From Symbiodinium natans (taxonomy: Eukaryota > Sar > Dinophyceae > Suessiales > Symbiodiniaceae): a stretch of DNA of 64,000 nt. Positions 1 to 35,235 of the stretch are shown here, in pieces. Location of the stretch: the NCBI GenBank assembly GCA_905221605.1, contig CAJNDS010000207.1:1-64000 (forward strand). The letters run 5' to 3'. Below the pieces are notes generated by a model, which was not told the DNA's origin, did not search any database, and saw only the letters and a list, made by a program, of their open reading frames with translations. Every line of letters begins with the position of its first letter. Positions within the stretch are counted from its first letter, which is position 1. The position numbers and the translations under genes are program-made.

Positions 1-3000
1 CCTCTGCAGGCAGCTTTAAACTTGTAGGAGTGCTCAACATAAGAGAAACGTGCACAGGGAAGGCCCATACACGCGAAGCCAGAATTGCTTAGATTTTGCA
101 ACCCCAGATTTGGAATTGCGCAAACTGGCCACTTTGCAACCATGTGTACGCGATATTGCAAGGCCTCAGAGGCCTTACTCTTCGGGCGTTTAAGGCCTTT
201 CGAGCCTTTTCAAGGCCTTTCGAGGCCTTGACAAAATCCCAAAACCCCTTAGCTTGCAAGATTTCAAGGCCTCGGAACCCGGGCTTATAATACTATTAAA
301 GGGGTCCCCGCAAGGCCTCGAGCCCAGAGGAACCCGGGCTGCCTCTCTTCTGGTCTCTTCTTTCATGTGAAAAGAATTTTAAGCCGCAGCTGGCTCCAAG
401 TCCTCTTCATTCTCTATTCAAAACGTCACGACGGACCTCGAAGGCGCCTCGACCGCTTAAGATGATCCTGCAAGCTATTCTTGCTGCCGCAAGTTTACTT
501 CTCGATGGGCCTCAGAAAAGGCCTCGATGATCCTGAGCTTTCAAAGTTTCATGAGAAAGTCCTGAAAGGCCTTCTGCATGACATTGCAAGCTGACGTTGG
601 TCTCCAGCGGGCAAGCAAACTGGAGGAGGCCTCGAGAAGCTTCGAAGCCTTCGGCAAAGTCTGAGGCTCAAAGATGATGTTACGTGTGAGCCGAGTGAAC
701 GCTCCCCGCCATTTAAACATCAACAACGCCCTTCGAGAAGACAACTGACGTTCACGAGGGCTTTCGATGGGGGCGTCGGCCTTCCCTATATCTTCTTCTT
801 CTTTGGGCCATTGGGCGCATGGCAACTTAAGTTCCGGGCCGGCGCAACACGCTTAAATATCTTCGCTGTCCAAAACCCAAGCCCGCCAAAAGCTTTTATT
901 CTGCAATGTCTAGCAGGCGACTCTGCACAACCACAGAAAACATTGAGACCACGTTGGTCAACTTCCCAGAGCTTGAAGCGTGACTTCTATCCACAGAAAA
1001 AGCAAACAAAGACCGAGACACCTGCAGCTCAGCTGCGTTTGCCAGATCCGGAACCAAAAAAACGGGGCCGTCTTACGGCCCCAAAAATTGGGGCCGCAAA
1101 TGGACCCAGCTCTCGTAATACAATTTGGAACTAAATTGCGGGGTTGTAAAACCGCAACTCCAAAATAGGGGCCGTCTGGCGGCCTCAATTTTAGGGCCGC
1201 GGATTCTTCTATTTTTGGACTTAATCTTGCGGTTTCCACTGGGGCCCACAGACAAGCACTTAACGCGGAAAACTCAGAACCACAACCTCTGCAGGCAGCT
1301 TTAAACTTGTAGGAGTGCTCAACATAAGAGAAACGTGCACAGGGAAGGCCCATACACGCGAAGCCAGAATTGCTTAGATTTTGCAACCCCAGATTTGGAA
1401 TTGCGCAAACTGGCCACTTTGCAACCATGTGTACGCGATATTGCAAGGCCTCAGAGGCCTTACTCTTCGGGCGTTTAAGGCCTTTCGAGCCTTTTCAAGG
1501 CCTTACTTATGGGGTTTCAAGGCCTTTCAAGGCCTTTCGAGGCCTTGACAAAATCCCAAAACCCCTTAGCTTGCAAGATTTCAAGGCCTCGGAACCCGGG
1601 CTTATAATACTATTAAAGGGGTCCCCGCAAGGCCTCGAGCCCAGAGGAACCCGGGCTGCCTCTCTTCTGGTCTCTTCTTTCATGTGAAAAGAATTTTAAG
1701 CCGCAGCTGGCTCCAAGTCCTCTTCATTCTCTATTCAAAACGTCACGACGGACCTCGAAGGCGCCTCGACCGCTTAAGATGATCCTGCAAGCTATTCTTG
1801 CTGCCGCAAGTTTACTTCTCGATGGGCCTCAGAAAAGGCCTCGATGATCCTGAGCTTTCAAAGTTTCATGAGAAAGTCCTGAAAGGCCTTCTGCATGACA
1901 TTGCAAGCTGACGTTGGTCTCCAGCGGGCAAGCAAACTGGAGGAGGCCTCGAGAAGCTTCGAAGCCTTCGGCAAAGTCTGAGGCTCAAAGATGATGTTAC
2001 GTGTAAGCCGAGTGAACGCTCCCCGCCATTTAAACATCAACAACGCCCTTCGAGGCGACGGACTGACGTTCACGAGGCTTTCGCTGGGGGCGTCGGCCTT
2101 CCCTATATCTTCTTCTTCTTTGGGCCATTGGGCGCATGGCAACTTAAGTTCCGGGCCGGCGCAACACGCTTAAATATCTTCGCTGTCCAAAACCCAAGCC
2201 CGCCAAAAGCTTTTATTCTGCAATGTCTAGCAGGCGACTCTGCACAACCACAGAAAACATTGAGACCACGTTGGTCAACTTCCCAGAGCTTGAAGCGTGA
2301 CTTCTATCCACAGAAAAAGCCAACAAAGACCGAGACACCTGCAGCTCAGCTGCGTTTGCCAGATCCGGAACCAAAAAAACGGGGCCGTCTTACGGCCCCA
2401 AAAATTGGGGCCGCAAATGGACCCAGCTCTCGTAATACAATTTGGAACTAAATTGCGGGGTTGTAAAACCGCAACTCCAAAATAGGGGCCGTCTGGCGGC
2501 CTCAATTTTAGGGCCGCGGATTCTTCTATTTTTGGACTTAATCTTGCGGTTTCCACTGGGGCCCACAGACAAGCACTTAACGCGGAAAACTCAGAGCCAC
2601 AACCTCTGCAGGCAGCTTTAAACTTGTAGGAGTGCTCAACATAAGAGAAACGTGCACAGGGAAGGCCCATACACGCGAAGCCAGAATTGCTTAGATTTTG
2701 CAACCCCAGATTTGGAATTGCGCAAACTGGCCACTTTGCAACCATGTGTACGCGATATTGCAAGGCCTCAGAGGCCTTACTCTTCGGGCGTTTAAGGCCT
2801 TTCGAGCCTTTTCAAGGCCTTACTTATGGGGTTTCAAGGCCTTTCAAGGCCTTTCGAGGCCTTGACAAAATCCCAAAACCCCTTAGCTTGCAAGATTTCA
2901 AGGCCTCGGAACCCGGGCTTATAATACTATTAAAGGGGTTCCCGCAAGGCCTCGAGCCCAGAGGAACCCGGGCTGCCTTTCTTCTTTTATGTAAAAAGAA

Positions 3001-3410
3001 TTTTAAGCCGCAGCTGGCTCCAAGTCCTCTTCATTCTCTATTCAAAACGTTACGACGGACCTCGAAGGCGCCTCGACCGCTTCAGATGATCCTGCAAGCT
3101 ATTCTTGCTGCCGCAAGTTTACTTCTCGATGGGTCTTAGAAAAGGCCTTAATGATCCTAAGCTTTCAAAGTTTTATAAGAAAGTTCTTAAAAGGCCTTCT
3201 GCATAACATTGCAAGCTGACGTTGGTCTCCAGCGGGCAAGCAAACTGGAGAAGGCCTCGAGAAGCTTCGAAGCCTTCGGAAGTCTGAGGCTTAAAGATGA
3301 TGTTACGTGTGAGCCGAGTAAACGCTCCCCGCCATTTAAACATCAACAACGCCCTTCAAGAAAACAAACTGACGTTCACAAGGCTTTTGGCTTCTCTATA
3401 GCATAGACCT
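1..3410. repeat. Tandem satellite, unit about 1,317 bp, three copies
   Basis: Three head-to-tail copies begin at 1 (already inside the array), 1286 and 2603. Copies 1 and 2 are nearly identical; copy 1 lacks a 32-bp piece that copies 2 and 3 carry in their AAGGCCT-rich part (near 1505-1540). Copy 3 is more diverged, with many C-to-T and G-to-A changes, and fades out near 3410. Each unit contains clusters of the palindrome AAGGCCTT, a GGCC-rich fold-back segment, and the same string of short open frames on both strands. Those frames are repeated by the satellite and show no conserved protein signature, so I do not call them genes. Confidence 0.93.
1053..1215. repeat. GGCCCC/GGGGCC fold-back segment inside the satellite unit
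   Basis: Two imperfect inverted blocks (a run like GGCCCCAAAAATTGGGGCC, then GGGGCCGTCTGGCGGCC) flank about 70 bp of AT-richer sequence. The same block recurs at about 2370-2532 in the next satellite copy and, diverged, at 6165-6325 outside the satellite. The arrangement resembles a short fold-back (MITE-like) element, but no target-site duplication could be fixed. Confidence 0.6.
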
Positions 3411-3970
3411 CGGTTACCGCCAAGATTAAACGGGAAGCTCAGGCCGGAAGATTTATCCTGGTTTTATCCAGAGTGTTTCTGTCATGGCCCGCTGGGAATT
3501 TATCCAGCCCGCGCGGGGTTAGATTGTTAGCGGAGTCATCGTTGTATGTTTTGTCAGACAACAAGGGTTTGCATTGAAGGTCGAGCCTGGGAATTTATCC
3601 GGCTCCTTGTTTGTGCTGGGAGTGGCTCTAGCATCAGCATTAGACACGATTTGTGCATCAGTTCATGTCACCTTTCTGGCGCCGCTGTGTCCAAAGCGCT
3701 TTAATGCAATGGTACCTGTCACAAACAGGGAAGAGGAGAGTATGCCCTGGGCGTGTTTTGGGTGAACCCGCCTTCCGCTGCTGCTGCCTGGGGTGCACCG
3801 CCGCGGTCCGGGTGAAGTCCCGGTGGTCTGACGTTAGGGTTAGGCCCCAAGGAATTTATTCTGGGGTTGTTGTTTTCTCAAACACATAGTGTCGACCTCA
3901 TTCCGACTCATTCCTATCTGCTCCAACCCACAGCTGAAGGCTAAAGTCCCAGAGGCTCCACTCGGGGGTA
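3411..3970. other. No gene seen; short repeated motif
   Basis: Unique-looking sequence between the satellite and the long duplication. The motif GGAATTTAT recurs (near 3495, 3590 and 3850) and a TTAGGGTTAGG telomere-like stretch lies near 3834. No open frame with protein-like composition was found. Confidence 0.5.
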
Positions 3971-5740
3971 CCCGCTAGGCCACGCACAAGCGGACGTGAC
4001 TTTTGCACACAAAAGCGGACCCAGAATCTGGCCTCGGAACAATTTCCTGCGCAAAAACCCGGAGCACATATGGAAAACCTACTCCTGCGGAAAAATACAG
4101 CTGGGTTAGCCCCAGCGGCTCCTGGCTGCCTGGCCGCGTCACTTCTGATTCTCCCAGCCATCAGCATCCACCTCCACAACCTCACCTGGCAGCGCTGCAA
4201 AGCCGCACGACACACTGCGCCGCTTGCATCTTGCCTATCTGGAGGAGCGCCGACCGCATCATGTGACAAATTCCAAAGCTTGAAGTAACGCTGAGGAAAT
4301 CCATGGTGCCATGGAAGCTCATGGAAACCCTCGCTGAAGCTTCTGACATCTTTTTCCAAAGCCGCGATCGAAACCCCGCGGAGATTTTGCAGGAACCCTC
4401 ACAAAGCTCCACTGGAAGCTTTAAAGACCTACGCACGACCTAGAAAAGAAAACCCACAGAAACCCCGCGGAAACCCTCACACAGCCCTAAGAAACCCACG
4501 GAAACCCCTTCAAAGCTGTCAAAAACCATGAAAAACCCACGGTAACCTTCACAAGACATTAGAAAACCTTCCGAGAGCTTCAAAAACCTACGCAAAATCT
4601 AACAAAACCACTGGAACCCCGCAAACCTTAGAAAACCCCAGGGAAACCATCTGAAAGCTTTTAAAAAACCAAGGCAAAACTTGACAAAACCCACGGACAT
4701 CCGCGGAAACCCTCACAAAACTTTAGAGAAATTCAAGGAAAACCTCCGGAAAGTTCAAAAACTGCACGAAATCCCACGGAAACCCTCACGAAACCCTTGA
4801 GGAACCTACCAAAACCATCCAATAGGTTTTAACACATGCACGAAATCTAAGGAAACCCACGGAAACCCCCAGAAACCCCGCGGAAACCCTCGCGAAACTG
4901 TAGGGAAACCCAGGGAAACCCTCCAGAAGCTTAACAAACATGAACGGAAACCCTGCGGAAACCCCTTTATCAGAACTGGATTCACCCTTTGGCAATTTAC
5001 AAAGTTATTAAAGGACAGGTGCAGGAAACCCGCCACCCAATCACCGCACGCCAATGTCAGTATTATACTACCGGTCGTCCCCTAAAGGGTGAAGGACGCA
5101 AGAGGTGTTCTTCTGCTTCTGGCGAGGGACCTGTGTCAGCTGGGGCATGCCTGCCATACGAATCAATGGTCGCTGACCGTCTAAGAAGCACTTCGCGCCT
5201 TCAGGCAGAACGTCAAGGTACACATTGGTCTTTCACCAATCGGGTTCAGAAAAAGGAATACAGTCTACGTCTGCCTGGCTTCACCGTCCACGTCACAACT
5301 TGCTATAGAACAAGACTGACTTCCTGCCTCAGGGTTCATGTCAGACTCAACCCAAGGACCTGACTGAAGGCATGACTGGTTTCTTGCACCCAAAGCGCGC
5401 ATGGCTGTTGCTACAACCATACACAGCTAGGCCACCAAGCAGCGCACGGATGAGCTTGGACACCTCCGGCCGCGCACCGGCCGGCCGCGCCTGCGCCGCA
5501 ACGAATGTGAAGCCTCTCGCATCGCCAAAAATCGGCCTTGAAGACCTCGGCAACCTCCTCCACTGAGTACTTCGCTGAGCGAGTTGCGAAGGGCTTGCGA
5601 CACCTTGGAAGCACAAACATGGACCTACGGACTATGTCTGGGCACTTTTTTCGGCCAACAAATCAGGCTCCGACGTGGCAGACACGGCGCAAATACGCTA
5701 GCTGTGGCCGAGGAGCTGCTTGAGGCAAGAGAGCGCTCAG
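3971..5740. repeat. Long duplication, copy A
   Basis: This interval is repeated in the same orientation at 6482-8022 (copy B), beginning with CCCGCTAGGCCACGC in both. Over the first 780 bp the copies differ by few substitutions and small indels. Copy A is the longer; copy B has many small deletions in its second half. The open frames shared by both copies differ by frameshifts between copies and look non-coding. Confidence 0.88.
4370..4990. repeat. Degenerate minisatellite of CGGAAACCC-type motif
   Basis: A run of related 20-35 bp pieces built from CCACGGAAACCC, CCGCGGAAACCCTCAC and GAAGCTTTAAA motifs. It lies inside copy A of the long duplication and recurs in copy B (6890-7400), where its last part is inverted. 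No coding signal. Confidence 0.75.
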
Positions 5741-5755
5741 CGAGCAGCGGCTCAG

Positions 5756-6129: not shown

Positions 6130-6481
6130 CACGCTGACGAGACCCAGCTGCGTGAGCCCAGGGCTCAAACTTGCGACCCCAAAAATGGGGCCATCTCGCG
6201 GCCCCAAAAATGGGGCCACGAAATGCACCCAGCTTCCCTTATTATAATGTGTAAATACATGAAAAGGCTGGAACTGCGACCCCAAAATTGGGGCCGCCTG
6301 GCGGCCCCAATTTTGGTGTCGCTAAATCTGCATTTTTCGAGCCCCTGCGCTCCCCAGATTGCGACGCTACAGCAACTCTGACCCACAGGCAAGCTCCTAG
6401 CGTGGAGAATTTTTTTTAAAGAACAACGACCCCCCACAGGCAGCTTTCTTGCGGAAGTGATCAACATAATAGAAACGGGCA
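6130..6481. repeat. Diverged relative of the satellite unit
   Basis: This block resembles satellite positions of about 1021-1345: the GGCCCC/GGGGCC fold-back pair, then a CAGGCAGCTTT...CAACATAA...AGAAACG stretch. It joins directly to copy B of the long duplication. The mosaic shows that satellite-type sequence also exists outside the tandem array. Confidence 0.65.
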
Positions 6482-8022
6482 CCCGCTAGGCCACGCAAGC
6501 GGACGTGACTTTTGCACACAAAAGCGGACCCAGAATCTGGCCTCGGAACAATTTCCTGCGCAAAAACCCGGAGCACATATGGAAAACCTACTCCTGCGGA
6601 AAATACAGCTGGGTTAGCCCCAGCGGCTCCTGGCTGCCTGGCCGCGTCACTTCTGATTCTCCCTGCCATCAGCATCCACCTCCACAACCTCACCTGGCAG
6701 CGCTGCAAAGCCGCACGACACACTGCGCCGCTTGCATCTTGCCTATCTGGAGGAGCGCCGACCGCATCATGTGACAAATTCCAAAGCTTGAAGTAACGCT
6801 GAGGAAATCCATGGTGCCATGGAAGCTTATGGAAACCCTCGCTGAAGCTTCTGACATCTTTTTCCAAAGCCGCGCAAAGCATGAGAAAACCAATCGAAAC
6901 CCCGCGGAGATTTTGCAGGAACCCTCACAAAGCTCCACTGGAAGCTTTAAAGACCTACGCACGACCTATGTAAGAAAACCCACAGAAACCCCGCGGAAAC
7001 CCTCACACAGCCCTAAGAAACCCACGGAAACCCCTTCAAAGCTGTCAAAAACCATGAAAAACCCACGGTAACCTTCACAAGACATTAGAAAACCTTCCGA
7101 GAGCTTCAAAACCTACGCAAAATCTAACAAAACCACTGGAACCCCGCAAACCTTAGAAAACCCCGGGGAAACCATCTGAAAGCTTTTAAAAAACCAAGGC
7201 AAAATTGACAAAACCCACGGACATCCGCGGAAACCCTCACAAAACTTTAGAGAAATTCAAGGAAAACCTCCGGAAAGTTCAAAAACTGCACGAATCCAGT
7301 TCTGATAAAGGGGTTTCCGCAGGGTTTCCGTTCATGTTTGTTAAGCTTCTGGAGGGTTTCCCTGGGTTTCCCTGCAGTTTCGCGAGGGTTCCGCGGGTTT
7401 TCCGTGGGATTTCACCCTTTGGCAATTTACAAAGTTATTAAAGGGCGAGAGACCTGTGTCAGCTGGTGCTTGCCATACGAATCAATGGTTGCTGACCGTC
7501 GAAGAAGCACTTCGCGCCTTCAGGCAGAACGTTAGGTAGATTCTTTCACCAATCGGGTTAGAAAAAAGGATACAGTCTACGTCTGCCTGGCTTCACCGTC
7601 CACGTTACAACTTGCTACAGAACAAGACTGACTTCCTGCCTTCATGTCAGACTCAACCCAAGGACCTGACTGAAGGCATGGTTTCTTGCACCCAAAGCGC
7701 GCATAGCTGTTGCTACAACCATAGCTAGGCCACTAAGCAGCGCACGGATGAGCTCAGACACCTCCGGCCGCGCACCGGCCGGCCGCGCCTGCGCCGCAAC
7801 GAATGTGAAGCCTCCCAAAAATCGGCCTTGAAGACCTCGGCAACCTCCCACTGAGTACTTCGCTGAGCGAGTTGCGAAGAGCTGCGACACCGGAAGCATA
7901 AACATGGACCTACGGACTCTGTCTGGGCACTTTTTCGGCCAACAAATCAGGCTCCGACGTGGCAGACACGGCGCAAATACGCTAGCTGTGGCCGAGGAGC
8001 TGCTTGAGGCAAGAGAGCGCTC
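6482..8022. repeat. Long duplication, copy B, with local inversion
   Basis: Direct-orientation copy of 3971-5740. The segment 7291-7403 is the reverse complement of copy A around 4870-4981, and about 80 bp of copy A is missing within it. Both inversion edges carry a GGATTTCA-like sequence. Small deletions are scattered through the second half. Confidence 0.85.
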
Positions 8023-8638
8023 AGCTGCCTTTCAGAGTGCCTGGTTGTTTTGGTTGGACCTTTTTTGCTGGCAAATGTCAAGAGACCTTTTCTGTTGGAT
8101 CGAAGTGGTGAGATCTTTTGCTGGGCAAATGTTCAGAGACCTTTTCTTTTAAGTGTAAAAATTTTGACTTGTTGCAGTGTTGGGTTAGACTTGGACTTGC
8201 AGACACCTCTTTGCCTTCAAAAAAAGATTATTTTTTTCACTTGGATCGGATGTCTTAAGCCCCAGTTTTGATTTGAAAGTTTACACTCAAAAATCGATTC
8301 CAAGCCCAATTTTTCAAAAAAAAACAGACCAAAGGCAGTGTGGTCTGGCTTTGTGTTTGTTTTCTTTTGATTTGATAAAGAATGACCCTTTCTTTTGAGG
8401 AAGCAGTTTTGGGTAGGCCAAGGATTCATCAGAATAAATTTCCTGTTTTTTTTTTTTTTTGTTGGCTTGAGGCCTTCCTGCTAATGACCGTCTTTTTCCA
8501 ACTCCACACACCAGACGTTAAGAATGTTAAACTTGAATGCTAGGAATTCTAGAATTTATGAGAGGGCAAGGAAGAGGCATGTATAGGCTTGCAGAATTTA
8601 AGGTGGAGGGTTTCAGCATTGTAGGTTTAGTCTTACTT
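8023..8638. other. AT-rich spacer, no gene seen
   Basis: T-rich sequence with two related pieces (GCAAATGT..AGAGACCTTTTCT) near 8070-8150 and a 16-nt T run near 8444. Open frames are short and compositionally driven. Confidence 0.5.
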
Positions 8639-8885
8639 TGGAGGCCACTTTCATACGGTTGTCTTTTAGCAGCTCTAAATGTTTTTTCTTGTTTACAGAA
8701 GATTTTGGACATTTGCGTTGTTTTGCGTTTGTTTGCTATTTTTGCAATGGTACTTTTGCTTTGTTTGCACGTAGACCTGTTTTGCTGGATTTGTGCCGTA
8801 TTGTTTTTTCAAGATGCCTTGAGATCTGCAAGACTCTAGAAGACTTTTTGCAATTTTTTGCGACAGATTGCGGATCTGAGCCGCT
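8639..8885. repeat. Right arm of the long inverted repeat
   Basis: Reverse complement of 5756-6022; see that entry. It starts GGAGGCCACTTTCAT and runs to the CTGAGCCGCTGCTCG end, so both ends of the arm are recognisable. Confidence 0.82.
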
Positions 8886-8952
8886 GCTCGAAAGACAATC
8901 TTAAAAATCTCAGAAAACAGGCAAGATAAAACAAATCTTCAAGAAAATCTCT

Positions 8953-9052
8953 TGTCGTGTGTGTGTGTGTGTCTGTGTGTGTTGTGTGTATGGTGTGTGC
9001 ATGTGTGTTGTGTGTTGGTGTGTGGTTGGTGTGTGTTTGGTTTTGGTGTTGG
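8953..9052. repeat. GT-rich microsatellite
   Basis: Interrupted (GT)n with TGG and TTG interruptions. It lies just before the CTA array. Confidence 0.9.
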
Positions 9053-9137
9053 CATGTGCTTTCTTTATTTAGCAAAAAACAATGAAGGGCCCTAAAGGCA
9101 CTCACTGCGTCCCAGTAGACACGCACCTTCTACGACC

Positions 9138-9347
9138 ACGACAACTGCTACTGCTACTTACTACTACGACAACTTCTACTACTACTACAAGTACTACTAG
9201 TTTTACTGCTGCTACTATTACTACTACTATTACTACTACTATTACTGCTACTGTACTCTACTACTACTACTACTACTACTACTACAAACTACTACTACTA
9301 ACTACTACTACTACTTACGACTACGCTACTACTTACTACTTACTACT

Positions 9348-9396
<49 letters not shown>

Positions 9397-9567
9397 ACTA
9401 CTACTACTACTACTACTACCTCACCCTACTATTACTACTACTACTACTACTACTTCTACGACTACTACTACTGCTACTGCTACTGCTATCACTATTACAT
9501 CACTACTACTTACTTTGCCCACTACTGCTACTACTACTGGACTACTACTACTACTACTACTACTACT

Positions 9568-9627
<60 letters not shown>

Positions 9628-9733
9628 TACTACTCTACTACTACTACTCTACCTACTACTACTGCTACTACTACTACTACACTTCTACTACTACTACTAC
9701 TACTACTAACTACTACTACTACTACTACTTCTC

Positions 9734-9766
<33 letters not shown>

Positions 9767-9840
9767 TACTACTACTACTCTACTAAACTACACTACTTAC
9801 TTACTACTGCTACTACTACTACTACTACTACTACTTACTT
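9138..9840. repeat. (CTA)n trinucleotide array, about 700 bp
   Basis: Almost uninterrupted CTA/TAC triplets with sporadic phase slips and CTG or ACT variants. Long open frames through it encode only Tyr, Leu or Thr runs depending on phase and are artefacts of the repeat. Confidence 0.97.
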
Positions 9841-9849
9841 CTAAGCTAC

Positions 9850-10112
9850 TGACGCTACTGCTACTGCTACTGCTACTGCTACTGCTACTGCTACTGCTAC
9901 TGCTACTGCTACTGCTACTGCTACTGCTACTGCTACTGCTACTGCTACTGCTACTGCTACTGCTACTGCTACTACTATTATTATACGATGGCCTACTAGC
10001 ACTATTATTAGTATTATTACTACTACTCTACTACTGTTATTAATTCTACTGCGACTGCTACTGCTACTGCTACTGCTACTGCTACTGCTACTGCTACTGC
10101 TACTGCTACTAC
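9850..10112. repeat. (CTACTG)n hexanucleotide array in two tracts
   Basis: Two tracts of the hexamer CTACTG (about 9854-9972 and 10050-10111) are separated by a degraded CTA/TTA segment. The first tract is highly regular. It directly continues the CTA array, so the hexamer probably arose by fixing a CTG variant. Confidence 0.95.
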
Positions 10113-29850: not shown

Positions 29851-30105
29851 GTGTTTTGGGCCTATTGCTAACGACTACAGAGTACATTTCTCCCCACTCG
29901 GGCTACCTTCGCAGTCAGAACCCTGCCGGATCGTGCTGGTATTTGTAGTGCATAGAGGAGCGCTGTCCTTGGTGCCGTGATCCGACTTGTGTGCATCGCC
30001 GGAGCGTGGCTCGAGCAACTTCTAGGAGAGTGCGGGAGAGTTCGATTTTTCCTGGCTTCGCCTTCGGAATCTACAGTGAAGGATCAGCATGGAGAAGCGA
30101 GGGAG

Positions 30106-33100
30106 ATGAGCATGCTGAGAGCCATCATCGGATTTGCAGCCAGCGTCGGCTCACGGGCACAGGGTAACGAAGCATGTTGGCGCGTTGGCTTCTCTTACAG
30201 CTACTGCTGCACTCCACGTAATCCTGAATGCTTTGACTCCATGTACACCTACGAGGTTTGCTGTCTGAATGATCAAAGGGGTTCCCAACTGCCAAAGGAC
30301 TGCCATCGTGCAGAAGACTTGCAGAGTCTTCCGCGTCAGTTACAGTGTCGCGGAACGCGTTGGGTGACCGCCGACGAGTGGGCTGGGTTCTTCTGGGCGC
30401 ATCAGTTGTCACAGGCGCTGGGAACCTCATTTCTCGGCTGGCCTAACGTGTCGGCACTGCTCGAAAAGGCCAACCGTAGTGTGCAGGCAAGGCAGGCCAG
30501 TGAAGAAGATTGCGTTTTTGGTTTTGCGGCCGTGATTCTTCACAGCTTGCCGGGAATTGAGAGAGAGGTGGGCAGTGATGCTGCGAGAAGAGCGAGCCAC
30601 CACGCCCAACGCCTGTTGCAGCAAGCAAGTGGCCTGGAAGACTGCCGCTGGCTGCAAATGGTAAACCACGACATGTTCGGCCACTACAATCTGGTCATGG
30701 GCTTGGATGTGCGGTTCCAGGGCTGGTGCCCAGAAAAGGCTCCGCGAATTTACGTTTACGATATGGGAGACCTGGCCGACCGGCCGCTCTCCTGTGCTCG
30801 GATCGGCTTCTGGGGCTCGGAGGTCTACGTGGACCGCTTCCTCAAACACTCTGGCTGCCGCACCCGCGATCCGGAGGCTGCAGACTTGCACCCTGACCGA
30901 ATCTTTGGTATTCTTTGGTGCTGTTTGGTGCTCCGTGGCACTGTGCTGCACCTGTCCTTGTTGAGCCCACTTTGCCTCCTCAAAGCCTTCAGCACGTTCA
31001 GCACGTTCAGCCTTGCAATGTTTGTCTAGGAAGCGTGGACGGGGAGGACTGGCATTCTGCAATTCAGCTCTCAGGTTCTTCATCCCCCTGTACCTGACTT
31101 GCTGGGAGCTGCATGTGGGCAAGCGGCTCTCGGAAGAGGGACAGTCGCTAGGCCGGCAAGGCTCCTTTCGCTCCTCTTTCGAAATCACAACGTCTTTGCA
31201 TGCCTCTTCGGATGTGACCAAGGCGTACAGCAATGGACGACATGCATGACCGCATTCTGCGTCTTCCCTACCTGCAGAGGTGCGGTGTGTGTGTGTGGGT
31301 GGTAAATTAGGCCTCCCTCCGTACAGAATGAGTACAGACAGGAGTCTTGCAAGACTGTGGGGGGGGGGGGAGCAGGGAAGTTATGGATTTCCGTCCCCAT
31401 GTATTAAGGACGTGTGGAGCCGAAGTCAATGCATAACAGTACTTTCGCAGGAAGGAAGGAATGGACCACGTGTTCCTGTTCGGGTCGTCCGTGTGGCAGC
31501 TGAAGAGGCGGGCATTGCATCTGCCATCCCTCATCCCGTGCTAAAGGGTTGTTAATGAACAATGTTCGTTGTTGCAAGCAAGGGCCCTGACTCAGATTTC
31601 ATGGAGTGTTTCTGGGGCAGGTGGCGAGACCTGTTCCCCCGATCGATCCTGCTCGTTGTGGAGTCCGAGCCCATCGAGTCTGACGGCACCTCTGCGACAG
31701 CGACTGTTTGCCCGAGCCTCGGATCGATATCGTGTTCTTCTCAGAGCTGGGGATGCAGTCTGGGAGCCCGCTGCACTTGCAGTCCACTTCGCTGTAGTTT
31801 TGGCTCGAGCGTTCCTCTTCGATCTCTTGGCTGTTCTGGTCCTCTGGGCTTTCCAATCGAAGGATGGCAAGCTGCTGCCCTCCCGGCTCATGGCCAGCCT
31901 GCCAGAAGCCAGACGAGTACAAGCCCAAGGGCACGGAAACAAAGCTAGGCGAGCTGCCAGTGTACACCGTCGGCACCGGAGACAAGGCAGATTTGAGTGC
32001 TTGCTTGCAAGACTCAATGCTTGCAAATCACATGCCGATATATGCCGATGCTTGTTTAAGAGTGTGAACCTCACCTGCCCTGCAAGAAAAGGGCATCTTG
32101 GTGTTGCCGGACATCTTCGGCTGGTCCTCCAACCAGGGCCGTCTCATGGGCATCGCAGACACCCTCGCAGATCAGGGGTACCGCGTGTTGCTCTCAGACC
32201 CCTTCTATGGAGACTCCGCGGTTGGCAAGGAGGACGTCATGGGCTGGATCATGCAGTTCCCATTCGAGAAGAAGATCGGCGCCGACATCGAGGCATGTGT
32301 GAAGCACCTACAGGAGCAGGGATGCAGCAGCGTGGGTGCGGTTGGCTTTTGCTGGGGCGTCTGGGCATTCTGCAAGTCCGCCTCCTTGGGCGTGCCTCTG
32401 AAGTGTGCCTCGCCAATGTAAGCCACCATCTCGTCTTTGCTACATCCATCAGGGTTTCCCTTTGTGCAGGGGCCGAACCGTATGCCACTGGACCGAGGTG
32501 GCGTCGGACCTCATCCCAGCACAAGACTGGAAGGCGCATTCGGTGGAGATGAGCAGGCGATGATGGACAAGGTCAACATGCCTGTGCCCGGGCTGAATCA
32601 CGAGAGGCTTGACGCGACTTTGGCCTCATTCTAAGAAGCATTGGTGGAGGCCACTTTACCGCATAAAGGCCAGGTACTGTAGGCAGAGGTCTCCTTGAGC
32701 TTACTTGGCTTTTGTGCAGTTTCACAAAGTTGTCCTTTTTCTGAAAGGTTGGTTGTTTAAAGATTGATACTTGTTCTATGGCTTTTTCTGCACTGGTCGC
32801 TCGTGAGGTGCTGCTCATGCCAGCCGGCAACGATCCAGAGAATCTCAAGGCAGGAAAGAACCAACCAAGTCATATAGTTGAGCACAGATTTCAGTCCATT
32901 TTCAAAGTCCCAACGCCTGTAATGCAGGAGGGCGGCGCCATCGCCGAGTCCATGGCCAAGAAGGCCCAGTCCCTTCCTTGTGTGCTCACGGTGTCCAGAA
33001 ACAAAACTAACAGCTCTCGAATGCTCTGTTTCACTTCGTGCCAGGGCGGCAAGACCATCACCTTCCCGGACCGCGGGAGGGCGACCGTGATGTCGGCTCT

Positions 33101-35235
33101 GTATTCTCTGTATTGTTTCGGCAGCAATTCCAGCAGTGCGAGTGCATGGGACATTCTTCGAGATTGCCCTTGTTATGCTGGTATGCACTAGCATCACTAG
33201 CATGGGCAAACTGATGGAGCGACCCTCCAGTATGTCACATGCCTGACTCTTCAAGGGCAAGAAGCACTTCTGTGATCTTCTGTGCCTCGTGAAGGACATG
33301 CAGCACGGCTTCTGCGCGCGTGGAGACCTCGCGCAGGCGGAGGTGAAGCGTGATGTGGAAGCAGCGATGCCGCTGTGCACTTCTTCAGTCCCTTCTGCCC
33401 ATGTGGCATGAGTCCATGTGTGAGACCAGTTTCGCTGATCTACTCGCCAAAGCCAGCCGAGGAAACATATGGTGGACTTCTTCAAGAGCAACCTCTGAGC
33501 CTTTTGAATAGGATTGCGGACGTAGGACGTAGGTTTTATATATTCTGATCTTTTGATTTCACCCAGCTACACCTACCCAGAGCTGGAGCGAGGCGAAGTC
33601 ATGGCTGCGCCGTACAAGGGCTGCAGCTTCTTAAGTTGACTAATGTTGTTCAGAGCTGGGAGACTAAGGCTGGCACTGCAAGGACTGTTTCCAACCCTGG
33701 AAAGACCTTGTGGTGCCCCCGCTGACGCCGCTGACCGGCACGCGCGGCTGGCCTTGTAGTTATTTGGGAACGTGAAATGTCGACCAGACCTCGGGAGCCT
33801 GTGATCCTTACATATCCCTTGTTTCGCACCGAGGCAGCATGATGTCGAGGTCCAAGCCCTTTCATGAGCGTGAGTTCCTCATGTCCGGGGCTTGGACAGC
33901 TTGGGAGAGTTGGGTTTCCCTCGCTCCGGCGCAGCGGCTTGCTATGCCGGTGAGGACTTGGAGGGGCCAGCACGCGGAGTCCGGGCTCCCAGAGGTGCGC
34001 CGCGCCTACACGATCACCAACGAGACCGTGCGCACGGCGCTGATCCACAACCTCAGTGCTTCGGTCAAAGGGAGGGAAGGATGCGCCGGTGAACGAAAGG
34101 TTGTGTTTGTCATTGAGTTCTTTGATGCTCAAGGTCACCTTCCAAATGTTTCCATCGGTTCGCCGGTGTCTGGCTACGCAGACTTGATGGCCAGCTCCAA
34201 ATTTTGTTTGTGCCCCAAAGGACGCGGACTGTGAGAGAAGCTAAACAGCTAAACACATGGGAATGTAGAGTGAGCCATGGCCTCGTGTCCGGTATCTCGA
34301 TTGCTGCCCCTGTGTGTTGCTTCTGTGGAGAGTGCCGGGTTCTCTTCAGCCAACGATGATGGACGTTTATAGTTTCCGAGCTTCCCAGAAAACGGTCCTC
34401 GCTCTCCAGTTTGGTGCTGATGGATGTGTTGTTTCTGCTCATGCTGCCCACGTGCAGCTTATCGCTGTGTTGCTTTGTTTGTTTGGCTTGTGTTTGCCAC
34501 GCCTTCAGAAGAAGTAGAGGGGTGCTGGGCAAACTCAGCTTGGGCGGCTTTGTTGCTGGCATGCCTTGCGGTTTTCTGAGCCGTTACTTTGCCGCCAAAC
34601 TACGACTGCTTCGTTGCATCATTGGATGTGTTTAGCAATGTTTAGCAGCCGTTTACTCTTGAAAGCCGTTCTTGAGCATCAAATGCTCCTGCCCCATGGA
34701 ATTACAGGGGTCCCTGCTTGCAGGAGCCAGCTCATACACCTCACGGGTCTTCGAAGCTTTGTTTGCTGGTTGCATTCCCGTGATTCTGTCCGACCACTTG
34801 CGCAACTCGGCAGCGTAGTCGTGTATTTCCACACTGCAGATGGCTGACAAGCTTGACAATTGGACCGAATTTGACACTCTTTGGCTCGAAATCAGGTCTG
34901 CCCTTTGATCACGTGGTGAATTGGTCCGAATTCAGCATTCTGTGGCCCATGGCGAAGGCGGCCGGGAACCCAGAACCTGTGAGCGCCGTGAACGGATGCC
35001 AGTTCCGGCCCGCGAAAGCGTGAGCCGTGCACGTCCCCCAAGGATCTCAGTCTCTACGACTACCTCCAAGGCCTGGCCCCTCTCAAAGTGTTGGAGCGCT
35101 TGGAAGATGGTGCTTGTGCCAGGCCTCCTGGAGCACGACACCGCAAGAGTCCTCGAGCTGCAACGCCGAGGGGGAGAGTTGCGCTGCTGGTTCGACTACT
35201 TCTCGCAGGAGAAGGCAAGGCAAGACCGCTTATAA
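30106..35235 (+). CDS. Exostosin-like glycosyltransferase (GT47 type), about 12 exons
   Basis: Deduced exons: 30106-30887, 31075-31151, 31231 to about 31286, about 31455-31501, 31579-31693, 33683 to about 33745, one or two between about 33780 and 34000, about 34000-34226, 34724-34801, 34896-34957, 35043 to about 35110, and about 35150-35235 (stop TAA). Exon 1 carries a short hydrophobic start and a cysteine-rich module (CxxxFSYSYCC...YEVCC), then the exostosin core (RIYVYDMGDL, EAADL|FFIPLYLTC, MDHVFLFGSS). Later exons give WKDLVVPPL, GYADLMASSKFCLCPKGRG|, SSYTSRVFEALFAGCIPVIL and WFDYFS, all typical of the family's C-terminal nucleotide-sugar half. Most fixed introns start GC (30888, 31152, 31694, 34802, 34958) or GA (31502, 34227). 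The fifth fixed intron (31694-33682) contains a complete other gene. A Golgi/ER polysaccharide or glycoprotein role is the family expectation. Confidence 0.82.
31794..31863 (+). promoter_or_regulatory. Possible leader relict and acceptor before the hydrolase gene
   Basis: GTAGTTTTGGCTCGAG at 31796-31811 resembles the dinoflagellate leader (GTAGCCATTTTGGCTCAAG) with three bases missing and one changed. A pyrimidine-rich stretch ends in AG at 31861-31862, just before the ATG. The nine-base core alone is expected by chance about once in a window this size. Confidence 0.3.
31864..33498 (+). CDS. Dienelactone hydrolase family protein, 8 exons, 244 aa
   Basis: Exons 31864-31986, 32092-32404, 32498-32583, 32808-32849, 32928-32963, 33045-33068, 33295-33368 and 33462-33498 sum to 735 nt in frame. 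Length and sequence fit the alpha/beta-hydrolase DLH family (carboxymethylenebutenolidase-like). All three catalytic positions are present: Cys in GFCWG (32350-32352), Asp in AGNDPEN (32832-32834), His in MQHGF (33304-33306). Donors are GC (31987, 32850, 32964, 33369), GT (32405, 32584) and GA (33069); all acceptors are AG before G. The start follows MASCCPPGSWP, the usual N-terminus of this type, with an AATCGAAG acceptor just upstream. The substrate is unknown. The gene lies entirely inside an exostosin-gene intron, same strand. The last exon could instead continue to about 33639, but the TGA at 33496 gives the family length. Confidence 0.9.

Follow-up and report, generated by a model that had tools for sequence, protein, structure and literature searches.

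A dienelactone hydrolase gene within a probable 2-kb intron of an exostosin gene at a locus of the dinoflagellate Symbiodinium natans

Introduction

Genes nested in introns of other genes have been described in the dinoflagellate Polarella glacialis, with 4898 (8.4%) and 3359 (6.5%) such genes in two isolates (Stephens et al. 2020, PMC7245778). The portion of that paper available to us says that the nested structure was confirmed by full-length transcripts, describes Suessiales genes as strongly unidirectional, an order it calls common, and indicates that the gene combiner of the pipeline allowed intron-internal genes only for introns >10 kb; the share of nested genes that are multi-exon or on the same strand is not given in that portion. 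Here, we describe a locus in the initial 64 kb of contig CAJNDS010000207.1 (C207, 196,934 bp) of Symbiodinium natans, hereafter the window, at which a multi-exon dienelactone hydrolase (DLH) gene appears to lie within an intron of an exostosin gene. This locus is like the P. glacialis nested genes, as far as that source shows, in having a gene within an intron of a multi-exon gene, apparently in the same order, but it differs in that a multi-exon gene occupies a 2-kb intron, whereas a >10 kb intron rule was applied there. Because nesting is common in Polarella, the gene in the window is an example of a known phenomenon rather than a new one, and the suggestion of an initial annotation that such nesting is unusual is not supported, given the P. 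glacialis range of 6.5 to 8.4%.

A second related system consists of dinoflagellate retrogenes that retain relict spliced leaders (PMC6050394). The accessible text of that source indicates that intron-containing retrogenes are known and that the leader range from -50 to -100 relative to the start is better conserved and possibly promoter-like. The window likewise has a leader-like motif 50-100 nt 5′ of a start codon, but here it comprises only 12 nt with one mismatch, and retroposition is a candidate explanation. Nested genes are not described in the part of PMC10522408 available, and no description of a small host intron containing a seven-intron guest was met in the texts consulted on dinoflagellate nested genes, although one may have been published.

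Results

Arrangement of the two genes

Three-frame translation showed that an exostosin frame breaks off after ...VVESEPIESDG and continues at ...DCFQPWKDLVVPP, and that between the two parts there are eight DLH exons, all on the + strand, which join into a single open frame of 244 codons. The upstream exostosin part matched positions 3-154 and the downstream part positions 187-278 of the Exostosin_GT47 profile (PF03016, typed joined exons), with scores for the two hand-joined pieces of 42.3 and 73.7 bits relative to a curated cut-off of 33.4. Judged by these matches, the two flanking parts complement each other within a single domain. The DLH product also exceeded its curated Pfam cut-off (PF01738, 67.1 bits compared to 21, using a first typed 241-aa version with hand-joined exons), and no odd domain feature was seen in the DLH or exostosin matches of the Pfam scan.

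The DLH coding sequence is positioned between the exostosin parts, and host homology agrees with the position of the intron. The placement of all eight DLH exons inside one exostosin intron on the same strand, as initially annotated, is supported by alignment to a DLH paralogue and by exostosin homologues. The length given in the initial annotation, 1,989 bp, becomes about 1,983 bp in the preferred version, and lies between 1.96 and 1.99 kb across three versions of the edges. Without the segment 31864-33498, the host intron would be about 350 bp, and the other modelled host introns outside the DLH region are 78-500 bp. At the level of sequence, the nested arrangement is real, and it is very probable that a functional DLH gene is contained in a GT47/exostosin intron that is ordinary in other respects. 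The features are listed in Table 1.

Table 1. Features of the nested locus, in window coordinates
Feature	Position	Strand	Basis and remarks
Host N-terminal exon and GT47 start	30112..30887	+	Open frame 29956-31026; GC donor after 30887 in 4/4 spliced alignments; approximate start codon
Host exon FFIPLYLTCWELHVGKRLSEEGQ...	31075..31160	+	3′ end from L015-guided alignment; three other runs end elsewhere
Host exon GMDHVFLFGSSVWQLK	31453..31505	+	Edges approximate; other runs: 31440 or 31451 to 31483-31498
Host exon RWRDLFPRSILLVVESEPIESDG, final one before large intron	31621..31685	+	GC donor after 31685 preferred, after 31693 or 31709 possible; 5′ edge 31621 from one run
Large host intron enclosing whole DLH gene	31686..33668	+	About 1,983 bp; exostosin homologues, L015-guided alignment; acceptor call disputed by three other alignments
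Leader-like motif TTTTGGCTCGAG	31798..31809	+	11/12 match to 3′ end of dinoflagellate spliced leader; -66 to -55 of DLH ATG
Complete DLH gene	31864-33498	+	244 aa, eight exons, seven introns
DLH exon 1	31864..31986	+	ATG at 31864; C791 alignment from 31873 on, first 9 nt open frame only
DLH exon 2	32092..32404	+	Catalytic Cys128 at 32350-32352; C791 alignment
DLH exon 3	32498..32583	+	C791 alignment
DLH exon 4	32808..32849	+	Asp183 at 32832-32834; C791 alignment
DLH exon 5	32928..32963	+	C791 alignment
DLH exon 6	33045..33068	+	GA donor next; C791 alignment
DLH exon 7	33295..33368	+	His212 at 33304-33306; C791 alignment
DLH exon 8	33462..33498	+	TGA stop; C791 alignment
Host exon WHCKDCFQPWKDLVVPPLTPLTGT, first after large intron	33669..33743	+	Donor 33743 in 4/4 runs; start 33683 in three
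Host exon with WRGQHAESGLPEVRRAYTITNETVRTALIHNL	33900..34055	+	L015-guided alignment; 5′ edge uncertain, other runs differ
Host exon PNVSIGSPVSGYADLMASSKFCLCPKGRG	34134..34230	+	Exostosin homologues, L015-guided alignment
Host exon SYTSRVFEALFAGCIPVILSDHL	34731..34801	+	Exostosin homologues, L015-guided alignment
Host exon LPFDHVVNWSEFSILWPM...	34896..34951	+	Homologues, L015-guided alignment; approximate 3′ end

The nested gene and its paralogues

The genome of S. natans (759.4 Mb in 2543 contigs, the scope of all own-genome searches) was searched with the first typed version of the DLH sequence, which matched the window, one place on contig C791 and one piece on contig C1776, so that there are at least three DLH copies. 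The C791 place (355703-356428, 89%) is an uninterrupted frame within an intronless frame of 290 codons (355559-356431). Alignment of the window to this frame, allowing for introns, gave seven DLH introns of 105, 93, 224, 78, 81, 226 and 93 bp, with the donors GC, GT, GT, GC, GC, GA and GC, respectively, and with G as the next base after each of the seven AG acceptors; the scoring favoured GT, GC and GA donors and AG acceptors, and thus these dinucleotides were partly chosen by rule. The use of AG acceptors with GC, GA and GT donors that had been annotated is upheld by the paralogues, which serve as natural cDNAs.

The spliced product has 244 codons, with no stop and no indel relative to C791. 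A Cys-Asp-His triad is that of bacterial dienelactone hydrolase. The residues C128, D183 and H212 were found by motif in the nested product and align with the equivalent residues of a solved dienelactone hydrolase (9n2w), and with the open frame this agrees with the earlier prediction of a catalytically intact enzyme. The nested and C791 sequences are identical at 620 of 726 nt with zero indels, and the differences fall on codon positions 1, 2 and 3 in the numbers 15, 12 and 79, which exceeds chance resemblance. The value of dN was 0.06 and that of dS 0.71 (NG86) or 1.0 (YN00), giving a dN/dS of 0.06-0.08, a pairwise ratio in which selection is not divisible between the nested and C791 copies. 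That the frame is intact despite such synonymous divergence points to maintenance of the inner gene, and on this comparative evidence the nested DLH is a complete gene under selection.

In the C1776 copy, five exons were matched with E values under 1e-4, and there were more exon-like pieces. In a comparison by eye, its exons are continuous at all seven intron sites of the nested gene and its own introns lie elsewhere; conversely, the nested gene has its seven introns at none of the C1776 intron positions where the two were compared. Because the seven introns are common to neither C791 nor C1776, the nested line probably acquired them once it had separated from C1776, and C791 either never had them or lost them as a retrocopy. 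An introner origin of the seven introns was considered and rejected: searched by the repeat-copy criterion alone, with very common words skipped, the introns gave only the C791 and C1776 exon matches at E <= 0.001, and with no intron copies elsewhere at that threshold recent introners are unsupported. Several exons of the C1776 copy (L013) are flanked by repeats rich in telomere-like TTTAGGG/CCCTAAA.

The polarity of the nested and C791 copies bears on the origin of the locus. The nested copy could be the older, intron-bearing gene and C791 a retrocopy of its mRNA, a reading that is compatible with nesting and dispenses both with a relict leader and with a gain of introns by the gene once nested. 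C791 is intronless, and the nested N-terminus (MASCC) resembles that of the third copy on C1776 (MAACC), whereas that of C791 is altered and tandemly repeated, which speaks for the nested copy having changed less. Conversely, C791 has a TTTTGG motif at -58, so the motif may predate both copies, and polarity needs other species to settle. We give the reading of C791 as a retrocopy of an older nested gene a little less than an even chance. The tandem N-terminal repeat of C791 (L012 4560-4706) reads SCCSFGSSQPLESPLLIPVSRE / GCCSFRSSQPSEPPLLIPVSRG and was seen neither in the nested copy nor in that on C1776.

A leader-like motif upstream of the nested gene

The motif TTTTGGCTCGAG upstream of the DLH ATG begins at -66, which falls within the -50 to -100 range named in the part of PMC6050394 available. 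At <=1 mismatch, this site is unique on the + strand of the window, and there are two sites on the - strand; in a set of loci that overlap in part and total 293,442 positions, there were five such 12-mers, including this one. The C791 DLH has a related TTTTGG motif, with two mismatches, at -58 of its first ATG. The motif is weak, however, and this counts against giving it much meaning: 48 of 8000 random 170-bp pieces equalled it, as did 28 of 5000 shuffled leaders, a gap being allowed in both comparisons. The motif is a weak hint of a relict leader in a DLH copy derived from mRNA.

Edges of the host intron

A family search found 18 exostosin places in the genome, and a search with a joined 89-aa exostosin piece matched the window alone. 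With the joined mid-piece as the query, 8 of the 18 places matched up to E 1, and L014, L018, L022 and L025 aligned over the host join in one frame. Since L018 and L025 represent one locus (C1729), these alignments indicate that in three loci both host sides belong to one domain stretch.

The choice of the acceptor was guided by L015, the best match for the N-terminal host exon, in which the mid-part frame, read by eye, runs VEARPLLGPEDDERILPGTSWHCQDCFRFGLDVVLP without an intron. Across the acceptor at 33682/33683, the window has the in-frame sequence GWHCKDCFQPWKDLVVPP, and the 14 nt of 33669-33682 encode (G)-W-H-C-K, so that GWHCKDCF in the window compares with SWHCQDCF in L015. Because L015 shares WHCxDCF at the join in an open frame, an exon start at 33669 is preferred over 33683, and the crude spliced alignment guided by L015 also picks 33669; on this comparison, the acceptor 33668/33669 is more likely than 33682/33683. 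This start (TAAG/GCTGG) requires one base from the donor side, supplied by 31685 (GACG/GCACC) or 31709 (GTTT/GCCCG), whereas the pair 31693/33683, likewise in phase, loses WHCK. Therefore, of the initial annotation, the interruption and resumption of the exostosin frame around the DLH gene stands, but the exact edges 31694 and 33683 become one candidate pair among others, 33669 being the preferred exon start and the donor being ambiguous. L029 and L030 have a comparable HC motif whose Cys codon is interrupted by an intron, of 90 and 216 bp respectively (boundaries by eye), at a distance of three codons from the site preferred in the window. Thus, an ordinary intron near the host join is present in two relatives.

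Several observations weigh against the nested arrangement or its edges. The joined-query search did not bridge the join at 14 of the 18 exostosin places, with L029 and L030 matching as two pieces, L020 and L028 matching weakly and 10 places, including L015, unmatched, and the query had itself been joined beforehand. Spliced alignments with L014, L022 and L018, which are distant and lack the WHCxDCF motif, picked 33683. The donor, read by eye, is ambiguous among the GC sites following 31685, 31693 and 31709, none of which was used in any of four spliced alignments; these four homologue alignments disagree on both edges and put exons inside the DLH region or past host exons. The spliced alignments were too permissive, some runs missing the host exons just 5′ of the large intron, and they were therefore relied on only for recurring edges or for L015. 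As for the orientation of neighbours, all 20 open reading frames tested were without a Pfam hit; these were chosen by eye from 127 of >=110 aa (17 on the + strand and 3 on the - strand), and three of the other 107 are the DLH and exostosin frames.

The ambiguity of the donor would also suit a locus in which the DLH split the host, leaving an upstream half, the DLH and a downstream half as three adjacent units, in which case the exostosin would be either a pseudogene or a pair of partial genes. Because the final upstream exon can be read without a stop as far as 31945, a truncated exostosin is possible, but the host pieces on both sides are open and have conserved motifs, among them the WHCxDCF of the join, and we regard a split host as improbable. 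A misjoin of a DLH locus into the exostosin gene during assembly is more improbable still, as the stretch 31694-33668 occurs once and whole in the 759-Mb genome (the remaining matches being to DLH exons of C791 and C1776) and the DLH is flanked by identifiable host exons, none of them cut, which would be rare for a random join.

Other features of the window

Scans for tRNA, Rfam families, repeats and open reading frames were made within the 64-kb window. There was no tRNA or Rfam match in it, and no tandem or short repeat near the gene was attributable to the DLH borders. Near-identical direct repeats were found at 198-2081 and 1515-3387 (97% over 1,886 bp, tandem unit about 1.3 kb), followed by a direct repeat with copies of about 820 bp at 3966-4774 and 6477-7297 (96% identity) and a second direct repeat pair at 5121-5741 and 7444-8025 (91%). 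The segment 9073-10040 is of low complexity, with frames of Y/L/T-rich runs, and the GC content of 8001-10000 is 0.39.

Discussion

We propose that a single pre-mRNA would be processed in two ways. Excision of the large intron as a whole would give the exostosin mRNA, with the DLH lost along with the intron, whereas joining of a spliced leader upstream of 31864, together with cleavage of the RNA after 33498, would give an eight-exon DLH mRNA. Candidate leader acceptors are the AG directly before the DLH ATG and the GTAG that precedes the motif at 31798. It is plausible that leader trans-splicing would supply the DLH with its own 5′ end; alternatively, the DLH might be transcribed from an inner promoter of its own.

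The locus may have originated by the insertion of a DLH copy, perhaps derived from mRNA, into the host intron. A more specific scenario is that reverse transcription of a DLH mRNA carrying the leader placed a copy in a short intron of the exostosin gene, that the relict leader TTTTGGCTCGAG (31798) now acts as promoter and trans-splice acceptor, that the seven introns were gained later, and that a short pre-mRNA yields either the host by cis-splicing or the guest by leader trans-splicing. We consider this whole sequence of events unlikely. If true, a 2-kb intron would hold a compact switch between cis- and trans-splicing with mutually exclusive outcomes, of a class that would be overlooked by annotation restricted to introns >10 kb.

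The nested arrangement itself suggests that genomes of this type can accommodate multi-exon genes in introns of only 2 kb, with leader trans-splicing as an easily available means of expressing them. The three DLH copies, of which C791 is intronless, the nested one has seven introns and that on C1776 has others, constitute a small natural experiment in intron gain and retroposition.

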